64,000 nt of DNA from Arenimonas terrae (GTDB lineage: Bacteria > Pseudomonadota > Gammaproteobacteria > Xanthomonadales > Xanthomonadaceae), in contig NZ_SMDR01000001.1 of the NCBI RefSeq assembly GCF_006265115.1, positions 372,001 through 436,000 of the forward strand, given 5' to 3'. The position numbers and the translations under genes were made by a program. Positions 7,574-9,846 of the stretch are shown here, piece after piece. The notes under the pieces were generated by a model. That model did no database searches, had not been told where the DNA came from, and saw only the letters and a program-made list of their open reading frames with translations. Numbering within the stretch: position 1 is the first letter of the stretch; every line of letters starts with the position of its first letter.

Positions 7574-7660
7574 GCGGGGTTCTGGCCGGCCCGGCCAGGC
7601 TTGCAGGTCGGCGCCCGCGGCCCCAGATCAGGGCCATCCCTTCGCGACGGAGCCACCCGC

Positions 7661-8107
7661 ATGCACACCTGGAAGCTGGTCATCGAACGCGCGGCCCGCG
7701 GCAACGCCGCGCCCGACCGTCGCGTCGAGAAGAGCGAAGCCCAGTGGCGCGAACAGCTGACGCCGGACCAGTTCCGCGTGATGCGCCAGGCCGGCACCGA
7801 GCGGGCCTTCAGCTCCGAGATGTGCGGACTGTTCGAGCCGGGCATCTACGACTGCGCCGGCTGCGGCACGCCGCTGTTCGACGCCAGCCACAAGTTCGAG
7901 TCGCACAGCGGCTGGCCGTCCTTCACCCAGCCGCTGCAGGACAACGTCGTGAACTACCTCAACGACGGCAGCCACGGCATGGTCCGCATCGAAGCCACCT
8001 GCGCCACCTGCGACGCGCACCTGGGCCACGTCTTCCCCGACGGTCCGCCGCCCACCGGCCTGCGCTACTGCATCAACGCGCTGTCGCTGGAGAAGTCGAA
8101 GGGCTGA
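7661..8107 (+). CDS. msrB: peptide-methionine (R)-S-oxide reductase MsrB
   Basis: Repairs methionine-R-sulfoxide in oxidised proteins, recycled by thioredoxin. 148 residues from the ATG at 7661, which has GACGGAG upstream. Two zinc CxxC pairs are visible (CAGC and CATC), then HSGWPSF and the catalytic Cys in GLRYCINALSL. No signal peptide, so cytoplasmic. It is followed by a terminator shared with the convergent ssrA gene. Confidence 0.95.
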   Translation: MHTWKLVIERAARGNAAPDRRVEKSEAQWREQLTPDQFRVMRQAGTERAFSSEMCGLFEPGIYDCAGCGTPLFDASHKFESHSGWPSFTQPLQDNVVNYLNDGSHGMVRIEATCATCDAHLGHVFPDGPPPTGLRYCINALSLEKSKG

Positions 8108-8125
8108 CCCTCCGCAAACGCCACA

Positions 8126-8159
8126 AACAACAACGCCACCCGAGGGTGGCGTTGTTGTT
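8126..8159. terminator. bidirectional terminator between msrB and ssrA
   Basis: A stem of about 15 bp with the core AACGCCACC/GGTGGCGTT and a tiny CGAG loop. It is flanked by T-rich sequence on the plus strand and by the complementary A-rich sequence, so it can end both msrB and the convergent tmRNA transcript. Confidence 0.85.
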
Positions 8160-8162
8160 GGT

Positions 8163-8514
8163 TGGTGGAGGTGGGGGGAGTTGAACCCCCGTCCGAGAGC
8201 ACTCCATCTCCGGTACTACATGCTTAGCTCGTTGTTCGATCTCGTCGGCCGGCAACACAACGTGCGAAGCGCACCGGCAAACACACCCGCTAAGTTCACT
8301 GCTGGTTGGCGGGTCGCCGCCGGCAGCTGTTCCGTGATAATGACCCTACATCCACGAGCACGGGCACAAGTGGGTTCGGGGCTTACGCCTTAAGCGGCGA
8401 GAGCGTAGTTGTCGTCGTTGGCAACTAAAGTTTGCAGCTGGATTAACGAGGAAAGCGGCCCCCTCGGCATGCACCAGTCGACTTCGCAACCCCCGTCGAA
8501 GCCAGGACACCCCC
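8163..8514 (-). ncRNA. ssrA: transfer-messenger RNA (tmRNA, ssrA)
   Basis: Ribosome-rescue RNA of about 352 nt. Read on the minus strand the 5' end is GGGGGTGTCCTGGCTTCGAC, the conserved tmRNA opening, and the 3' end is the T-arm GGTTCAACTCC followed by CACCTCC and an encoded ACCA. The seven acceptor pairs GGGGGUG/CACCUCC close with one G-U. The tag reading frame lies in the middle. Its protein partner smpB is encoded 330 bases upstream on the same strand, separated by a structured repeat. Confidence 0.97.
8390..8422 (-). other. tmRNA proteolysis-tag reading frame (ANDDNYALAA)
   Basis: Ten codons followed by TAA inside ssrA, encoding ANDDNYALAA. It differs from the E. coli tag (ANDENYALAA) by one residue and ends in the LAA degron recognised by ClpXP and ClpAP. 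clpA and clpS are also in this window (50.5-53.1 kb). Confidence 0.95.
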
Positions 8515-8618
8515 GGAAACGCGGAAATCGTTGAATCAACCGACGCCGAGAGTATGGGGCCGCTGCCAGGCCATCACAAGGGCAGGTGGTGAATGCCCGC
8601 CAACGATCTGGAGGACAG
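8515..8618. other. spacer upstream of ssrA
   Basis: About 100 bases between the tmRNA 5' end and the repeat cluster. The ssrA promoter should be here on the minus strand; CATACT (complement of 8551-8556) is a weak -10 candidate. GGGCA (8580-8584) and TGCCC (8594-8598) around GGTGGTGAA may be a decayed copy of the variable hairpin found in the adjacent repeats. No gene is seen. Confidence 0.4.
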
Positions 8619-8730
8619 CCCCCTTGGTAAGGGGGCGCGCCGAAGGCGCGGGGATCGGAAGTGATGAGCCGGGGCCCGCGATCCGCGCAGCGGATCGTGG
8701 GAGTTCCAGGGCGAATGCCCTGGAACTACT
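8619..8730 (+). repeat. composite hairpin repeat, unit A1
   Basis: Four hairpins in a row: H1 CCCCCTT-ggt-AAGGGGG (8619-8635), H2 CGCGCC-gaa-GGCGCG (8636-8650), a conserved linker containing GATCGGAAGTGATGAGCC (8651-8678), H3 CGATCCGC-gca-GCGGATCG (8679-8697), and H4 with 11-bp arms AGTTCCAGGGC/GCCCTGGAACT around a GAAT loop (8702-8727). The next unit follows at a period of 112 bases. Related units lie inverted at 37.8-38.0 kb. Confidence 0.9.
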
Positions 8731-8843
8731 CCCCCTTGGTAAGGGGGCGCGCCGAAGGCGCGGGGATCGGAAGTGATGAGCCGGTGCCCGCCCTTCGCAT
8801 AGCGAAGGGTGGGGTAGTCATTCGGCGAATGCCGAACGACTAC
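8731..8843 (+). repeat. composite hairpin repeat, unit A2
   Basis: H1 (8731-8747), H2 (8748-8762) and the linker (8763-8790) are nearly identical to unit A1. H3 is CCCTTCGC-ata-GCGAAGGG (8791-8809) and H4 has 13-base arms starting GTAGTC and ending GACTAC around GAAT (8814-8843), 12 of 13 positions pairing. H3 and H4 differ in sequence from unit A1 but keep their pairing. The last bases overlap the smpB stop codon. Confidence 0.9.
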
Positions 8844-9352
8844 GCATTTTTATTGTGCCGGCGCATGGTGCGCTCTTTTTCGCGCTGCCAGTCGCGGTCC
8901 TTGCTGGCCTGGCGCTTGTCGTGGCTCTGCTTGCCCTTGGCCAGCGCGATCTCGAGCTTGACCTTGTTGCCCTTCCAGTACACCGCGGTCGGGATCAGGG
9001 TATAGCCGTCGCGCTCGACCTTGCCGACCAGCTTGTCAATCTCGTGCCGGTGCATCAGCAGCTTGCGCGTGCGGCGGTCGTCGGCCACCACGTGGGTAGA
9101 GGCCTGGCTGAGCGGGGTGATCTGGGCGCCGAACAGGAAGATCTCGCCGGCTTTCACCAGCGCGTAGGCGTCGCCCATGTTCATGCGGCCGGCGCGGATG
9201 GACTTGAGTTCCCAGCCCTGCAGGGCGATGCCCGCCTCGTAGCGGGTCTCGAGGCTGTAGTCGTGGCGCGCGCTGCGGTTCAGGGCGATGGTCTTGTTGG
9301 CCGCCTTGTCCTTGCCGCTTCCGGTATTCTTGGCGTCGTTCTTCTTGGACAT
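8840..9352 (-). CDS. smpB: SsrA-binding protein SmpB
   Basis: Partner of tmRNA in trans-translation; brings charged tmRNA to stalled ribosomes. 170 residues from the ATG at 9352, which has a strong GGAAGGA upstream; an in-frame ATG ten codons earlier lacks this. It carries the OB-fold sequence [20 protein letters not shown] and the basic C-terminal tail rich in Lys/Arg that reads the mRNA channel. The N-terminal dozen residues are a lineage extension. The TAG stop lies inside the outer arm of repeat unit A2. Confidence 0.96.
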
Positions 9353-9420
9353 GTTCCTTCCTTGGCGGGCATTGTCGCCCATCGCGGGCCGGCTGGGGGA
9401 GGGCAGGCAGACGGAGCCCG

Positions 9421-9846
9421 ATGACGAGCATCCACCGACACGCGCTGGTCCGGCACTCGGCCCTGCGCATGTACACCCTGGTCAACGACGTCGCCAGTTA
9501 TCCGGCGCGTTTTTCGTGGTGCGAAGACTCCGCCGTGCTGGAAGAGTCCGACACCCACATGCTGGCCCGGCTCGACCTCACCGTCGCCGGCCTGCGCACC
9601 AGCTTCACCACCCGCAACACCCTGGTGGCGCCGACCTCGATCGAACTCAAGCTGGTCGAGGGGCCGTTCCGCAAGTTCACCGGCGCCTGGCATTTCCACA
9701 GCCTGGCCGAGGACGCCTGCAAGGTCTCGTTGACCCTGGACTTCGACGTGGCGGGCGCGGTGCTGGGCACGGCCCTGGCGATCGGCTTCCAGGGCCTGGC
9801 CGACAAGATGGTGGACGACTTCTGCCGCGAGGCGGACCGGGCCTGA
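9421..9846 (+). CDS. ratA: RatA/COQ10-family START-domain protein
   Basis: 141 residues with the pattern of the RatA/YfjG family: [28 protein letters not shown] at the front (split pattern HSA...MYxLVNDV...YPxF.WC) and [12 protein letters not shown] mid-protein. The START-like pocket is related to mitochondrial Coq10, which binds ubiquinone; in E. coli the protein was also reported to affect 70S ribosome assembly. Start ATG has ACGGAG upstream. One base separates its stop from rnfH, and it is divergent from smpB, the conserved gammaproteobacterial order. Confidence 0.9.

Follow-up and report, generated by a model that had tools for sequence, protein, structure and literature searches.

A dispersed four-hairpin repeat at gene 3′ ends in the Xanthomonadaceae, with a terminal hairpin that may be rewritten from the neighbouring gene

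The Repeat between smpB and ssrA

The window, by which we mean the whole 64,000-nt stretch of Arenimonas terrae DNA analysed here, carries at positions 8619–8843 two head-to-tail direct copies of a non-coding unit, with a period of 112 nt and 89% identity over 83 nt. The pair lies between smpB and ssrA, both encoded on the minus strand. Read on the plus strand, its units (a and b) comprise hairpins H1 to H4 and a linker:

8163–8514, minus strand: ssrA (tmRNA), on the H1 side of the element (ARAGORN; Rfam RF00023)
8608–8618, plus strand: conserved 5′ end of the element, CTGGAGGACAG in the window and CTGGAGGAAAG in many copies (from the flanks of copies)
8619–8635, plus strand: unit a, H1, 7-bp stem
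8636–8650, plus strand: unit a, H2, 6-bp stem
8651–8674, plus strand: unit a, linker
8675–8701, plus strand: unit a, H3, 12-bp stem with one G-T pair on the plus strand, loop GCGCAGC
8702–8727, plus strand: unit a, internal H4
8731–8747, plus strand: unit b, H1
8748–8762, plus strand: unit b, H2
8787–8813, plus strand: unit b, H3, CCCTTCGC/GCGAAGGG variant
8814–8843, plus strand: unit b, H4, whole hairpin
8814–8826, plus strand: unit b, inner (proximal) arm of H4, complementary to the smpB 3′ end at all positions but one
8831–8843, plus strand: unit b, outer (distal) arm of H4, with the smpB stop codon inside (CTA at 8840–8842, TAG on the minus strand)
8840–9382, minus strand: smpB, its 3′ end within the outer arm of unit b H4 (PF01668, E = 5.3e-58)

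A sequence-only reading of this stretch had described two tandem units with a 112-base period, each running H1–H2–linker–H3–H4, and the placement of the parts agrees. It had also called H1, H2 and the linker almost identical between the units, and indeed 57 of the first 58 positions are the same. H3 and H4 differ in sequence and remain paired in both units, with six of the 11 H4 pairs nearest the loop identical; that part of the description extends to copies elsewhere. For each unit and on both strands, the folding energy is more than 5 standard deviations lower than that of 200 dinucleotide shuffles. The conserved 5′ end of the element is missing between the tandem units. Nearly the same stem as that of the internal H4 of unit a is found in the internal H4s of two other loci of the same genome (L002 and L006).

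An intrinsic terminator of smpB was considered for the element and rejected, as the scan gave no terminator-like site inside it on the minus strand. Outside the element, a 19-bp inverted repeat at 8123–8162, between an ORF at 7601–8107 and ssrA, is likely an ordinary terminator.

Distribution in the Genome, Genus and Family

The feature is a member of a dispersed, family-wide, non-coding repeat of about 110 nt, presumably non-autonomous. In its own genome, blastn found 17 matches with E no higher than 6.3e-8, and a covariance model of H1 to H3 built from 16 own copies gave 27, five of them opposite-strand cross-hits over tandem units. After 150 candidates had been scored, the genome was credited with 22 units at 14 loci, one unit being weak and truncated.

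The covariance-model search of the host and its relatives, which the sequence-only reading had proposed, found the repeat in 17 of 27 genomes of the genus (E = 0.01) and in 196 of 296 genomes of the family, representing 25 of 46 genera (E = 1e-8); units of this kind also occur outside the window. At the level of the order, 24 of 150 drawn genomes matched (E = 1e-6), one of which (G347) lies outside the family. Other family genomes hold from 1 to at least 15 units each, with at least 15 in G117 and G150. Copies occur in records of Arenimonas, Xanthomonas, Stenotrophomonas, Luteimonas, Lysobacter, Pseudoxanthomonas and Thermomonas, and in metagenome bins. At three tested genes the element is present in some species and absent from their relatives. 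The family copies studied below come from 100 loci taken from the best-scoring part of a longer list, so that weak copies are under-sampled, and the genome comparison rests on one genome per species.

Rfam gave nothing above threshold on the element, only three weak matches (asX1 among them), and literature text searches returned no description of the repeat and left the H1 sequence string unmatched.

The sequence-only reading was reminded of REP elements by GTGG/GTAG at the H4 edge and suggested looking for a RAYT gene. A REP/BIME-type element moved by a RAYT (Y1_Tnp) transposase would account for GTAG at some H4 edges and for the association between Y1_Tnp and element presence (147/49/47/53; odds ratio 3.4, uncorrected for phylogeny). 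However, GTAG occurs in some copies only and there pairs with CTAC inside H4; many H4s have no GTAG, and there is no unpaired tag. The 22 units here, and 1 to at least 15 in other family genomes, contrast with the more than 100 copies per genome given for REPs in the excerpt of PMC2817692, and the arrays compared run head-to-tail rather than in alternating orientation. Moreover, 49 of the 196 element-bearing family genomes lack Y1_Tnp at E = 1e-6, and 16 of these 49 have at least 5 units. The host genome has two Y1_Tnp genes (L021 and L022), with no unit within the 1.5-kb flanks of either. The REP likeness is thus unsupported; on copy number, layout and missing linkage in the host genome we reject membership in that class, and regard the reading as improbable.

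Other inverted repeats were seen near some units. At L054 and L064 of Arenimonas metalli a GGGGTCAGA...TCTGACCCC inverted repeat lies inside or beside units, interrupting H3 in L054; it resembles the repeats flanking the L021 Y1_Tnp gene (about 1105–1130 and 1968–1995). In the host genome, a truncated unit (L017, 1421–1541) abuts another copy of the GGGGTCAGAGTGCATTTATCTT inverted repeat.

Position at Gene 3′ Ends

The H4 side of the element meets the 3′ end of a convergent gene, and there the outer arm of H4 overlaps a stop codon, the final codons, the T-tail of a terminator or the end of an RNA gene. Protein neighbours in the host genome, assigned by Pfam, are SmpB, EF-Ts, a class II tRNA synthetase (LysS), dCTP deaminase, RlmM, an AcrB-type pump, a CheW protein, a GGDEF-EAL protein and a 2OG-Fe(II) oxygenase; the SRP RNA gene adjoins L009 (Rfam). 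At the protein sites the stop codon lies −8 to +6 nt from the outer edge of H4, a range that leaves out L003 (read by eye) and L008, that takes the distance from the H3 edge at L015, which has no H4, and in which the frame at L010 is unverified. L008, whose EF-Ts neighbour is confirmed by Pfam, was placed by hand and has its stop at −7. The element may supply the stop codon at some sites, as GTAG REPs do.

In relatives, the protein targets include secA (SEC-C domain), a ferritin-like gene of the Dps type and an Fe-S biosynthesis gene of the ErpA/IscA type. Among the 16 loci submitted to Rfam, 12 adjoin SRP RNA and the other 4 RNase P RNA. ARAGORN places tRNA-Lys beside L073 and tRNA-Leu beside L195, and does not confirm a tRNA suggested by eye at L011. 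In one genome a unit abuts the 3′ end of the sRNA gene asX1 (L205, G138:C1:2507537–2507753). When ORFs of at least 120 codons are counted, no more than 72 of the 113 terminal units have a convergent ORF that ends at −45 to +60, and for 42 of these the end is no further than 10 nt from the edge of H4; the same interval holds such an end at 47 of 258 control points.

Part of the linker (such as ACCGTG) complements the last bases of the neighbouring gene in secA copies (e.g., L055 and L180) and at L088 and L196; by this pairing H3 and H4 would be enclosed in a multibranch structure.

Conserved Pairing and the Probable Folding Strand

Across 127 distinct H1–H3 cores, drawn from 135 matches in the 100 loci, 98.6% of cells pair and 21 of the 25 pairs have changed on both sides. 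Shuffled cores gave a mean of 9.1 such pairs, and none of 500 shuffles reached 21. H4 was scored by a separate finder: a hairpin with a score of at least 6 is present in 129 of 140 units (141 collected, one left out for N), compared with 10 of the 141 windows placed 250 nt further along and 6 of the 141 shuffled controls. Thus H3 and H4 pair in copies elsewhere, as the sequence-only reading required. The H4 hairpins represent 112 distinct sequences, with GCGAATGC (29 of 129), GCGCAGC (11) and GCGAAGC (10) as the commonest loops. Loops of the d(GCGNAGC) type are unusually stable in DNA.

On the plus strand, G-T exceeds A-C by 40 to 2 in H1 and by 71 to 6 in H3; there is no G-T excess in H2 (5 to 8) and a weak one in H4 (23 to 13). 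In a set picked by the H1/H2 pattern only, the H3 ratio is 23 to 3, with p = 9e-5, a value that is optimistic because the copies share ancestry. Since G-T is tolerated far more than A-C in H1 and H3, the plus strand seems to be the strand that must fold. From these sequence patterns we infer that the plus strand of the element, antisense to the neighbouring gene, folds single-stranded, as RNA or ssDNA, and would be constrained accordingly. Among 122 rows, the two inner pairs of H2 are swapped between G-C and C-G 28 and 30 times; for each of these pairs a single row is unpaired, and G-U does not occur.

The principal alternative to copying is ordinary compensatory evolution: the element would be a structured RNA or 3′ UTR in which selection preserves all four stems, pair by pair, and H4 would belong to the element and merely overlap the gene end. 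The strong covariation of the H1–H3 cores, the preference for G-T over A-C in H1 and H3, as expected of a folded plus strand, and the folding of the units below their shuffles are all consistent with it, and such stepwise compensation in RNA may act on H1 to H3 in any case. Against it stand the H2 swaps, which occur almost without intermediates, and the fact that the plus strand is antisense to the very gene whose end forms H4. Copies beyond a terminator would fall outside the transcript of the neighbouring gene, and a scan of 8100–9500 for sigma-70-like promoters, the one promoter type covered, gave none. We hold this alternative to be possible, at roughly one chance in three, and return to it with the evidence on H4.

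The Outer Arm as Host Sequence and the Inner Arm as Its Inverted Copy

The inner H4 arm is an inverted copy of the outer arm, which overlaps the gene end. At secA, examined in the best-matching 30 of 59 genomes (29 rows read), the last codons (His-Gly-Gln-Leu-Ser) and the stop occupy one arm of H4. This coding arm, CCACGGTCAGCTCAGC, is present at secA in the element-free relative G041 with only a 10-position partial palindrome. A full inverted copy follows the stop in all four element-bearing rows (G082, G062, G027 and G063) and in none of the 25 element-free rows at the score used. The arm exists without the element in G041 and is accompanied by its inverted copy in four element-bearing relatives, a pattern expected of a template-switch hairpin. 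Three element-free rows contain partial stop-spanning palindromes (L245, score 7.5; L250, 4.5; L252, 3.5), and the imperfect inverted copies in G032 (L250) and G078 (L252) may be remnants.

A second kind of host arm is seen in nine copies (an eight-member cluster and L205): here the outer arm is the T-run behind a GC-rich hairpin, and the inner arm holds the complement. Arms that consist of codons or of terminator T-tails have a function of their own, which argues against H4 being a part of the element that is maintained by pairwise compensation.

Stop-spanning palindromes, defined as starting before the stop and scoring at least 6, were found at 10 of 10 lysS, smpB and secA sites with the element and at 5 of 64 without it (Fisher p = 4e-9), a count in which L097 and L251 were assigned by eye as element-bearing and from which 4 of 25 smpB loci and 1 of 30 secA loci (no motif match) and two of 26 lysS loci (L109 and L116) were left out. 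These sites bear on the idea that the element inserts beside pre-existing palindromes or terminators, both H4 arms being native. Many targets are terminators or RNA genes, and a few element-free sites have partial palindromes, as this idea would lead one to expect. However, 59 of the 64 element-free sites have no stop-spanning palindrome at the score used, on which native palindromes are rejected for most lysS, smpB and secA sites, and the GCGAATGC loop recurs at unrelated genes; we consider this explanation very improbable.

The smpB and lysS sites give additional comparisons. The distal arm at smpB in G015 resembles the empty site in G001, with 8 of 12 positions matching by eye, and the sister genome G003, whose SmpB is 99% identical, has no element at smpB. 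The native state at lysS is uncertain. In G020, a genome with no element match, a perfect 16-bp palindrome spans the last SmpB codons and the stop (L141, contig C32); assembly mixing is possible there, as a second smpB C-terminus lies on contig C111 (L142).

Concerted Change of the Two H4 Arms

Between orthologous H4s both arms have diverged, yet the pairing is kept (18 clusters of sites, 75 distinct hairpins). In comparisons of orthologous H4 pairs, from which the cluster of tandem units is left out, 841 had changed on both sides with both states Watson-Crick, 173 had changed on one side (68 G-T, 20 A-C and 85 other) and 110 had changed on both sides otherwise. When the outer arms were re-dealt within clusters in 200 runs, the first class averaged 135 and peaked at 280, against the 841 observed; the H4 finder favours paired stems, so this contrast is inflated. 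At the pump gene, the H4 stems of four species differ in mid-stem and all pair, with edges and loop conserved. At the CheW gene, G000 and its sister G003 have the same internal H4 and different terminal H4s.

Tandem arrays allow the terminal, gene-side H4 to be compared with the internal one of the same locus. Among 25 tandem pairs, nine have cores at least 92% identical, and in these H4 is changed in four and kept in five (L003, L191, L197, L198 and L219). The clearest change is at L044 in G018, where the cores are identical at 84 of 84 positions, only 2 of 9 H4 pairs are the same and both arms differ. The others are L028 (core 78/84, 4 of 11 H4 pairs the same), L155 (77/82, 5 of 8, the second hairpin being poor) and L002 (81/83, 7 of 10). 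Conversely, the H4s at L006 are alike (9/11) despite a core identity of 70/88. Two-arm replacement is therefore rapid at some gene-side units and not at all of them. Because the tandem pairs are mixed, the terminal H4 may at some sites descend from the element's own H4. Identical tandem cores can also arise from gene conversion, which could add to the two-arm H4 contrast.

For pairwise compensation these arrays cut both ways. The likeness of terminal and internal H4s at L006, L198 and L219 speaks for it, whereas a whole-arm change of H4 beside an identical 84-nt core, as in G018, speaks against it.

A Template-Switching Proposal

As the reading that we tentatively favour, at somewhat under an even chance, we propose that a non-autonomous repeat settles at gene 3′ ends, that its terminal hairpin is rewritten by template switching from the gene end and that its plus strand folds. 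Our confidence in this proposal is lowered because the tandem pairs are mixed; both the mobility of the element and the inverted copying are inferred. According to this proposal, the element would settle directly after a gene 3′ end with its H4 side towards the gene, and a DNA polymerase would use the outer arm of H4 as the template for the inner one. Closed by GC, the tight loop (GCGAATGC, GCGNAGC) could serve as a snap-back primer for template switching during replication. Such switching, at insertion or repeatedly afterwards, would make H4 track the gene end. Template switching is described as making and repairing hairpins, and existing loops have been proposed as intrastrand primers, in the excerpt of PMC8794818.

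The appeal of template switching is that inverted copying by DNA synthesis would account at once for the host arm, the copied arm, the common loop and the concerted change. The sequence-only reading had offered selection on structure or arm-from-arm copying as the two sources of conserved pairing, and both have support: for H4, copying is the better match wherever the outer arm clearly belongs to the host (secA codons and terminator T-tails), and H1 and H3 agree with the folding of one strand. In an unlikely variant, the 3′ end of the target strand would act as both primer and template, snapping back on the GC-closed loop, copying itself and then switching onto the element.

Covarying stems are usually taken as proof of selection on RNA, and here DNA copying may be the cause of covariation. 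The range of unrelated gene ends amounts to a natural series, and the direction of copying can be read from it wherever an arm is coding sequence or a terminator tail. If DNA copying is correct, template switching becomes testable as a continuing force on genome repeats; if the primer–template variant is true, this would be a mobile element with a terminus re-made from the target at each insertion.

Comparison with Known Systems

The asX1 sRNA (Rfam RF02235) gave a full-length weak match to unit b on the plus strand (21.6 bits against a cut-off of 70, E = 0.31). We treat this sub-threshold match as chance and reject asX1 as the identity of the repeat, as asX1 is a separate locus: it matches in 106 of 119 family genomes, once in each except G094 with two, and lies in the host genome at C5:90556–90671 (67.5 bits, just below the cut-off).

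GTAG REPs and BIMEs are likewise palindromic, non-coding repeats near gene 3′ ends and can supply stop codons, often the TAG stop, as given in the excerpt of PMC3733652. Unlike them, the repeat described here has few copies of about 110 nt, four different hairpins and head-to-tail arrays; it has no unpaired tag, its H4 varies with the target and no RAYT gene stands beside a unit in the host genome.

Hairpins made by template switching, with which we group quasipalindrome mutagenesis, have in common with the process proposed for H4 the inverted copying that creates or repairs stems and the stable loops proposed as primers (PMC8794818, in the excerpt considered). Those systems are mutations in RNA genes or reporters, whereas here the process would operate at the terminus of one dispersed element, facing many unrelated gene ends.
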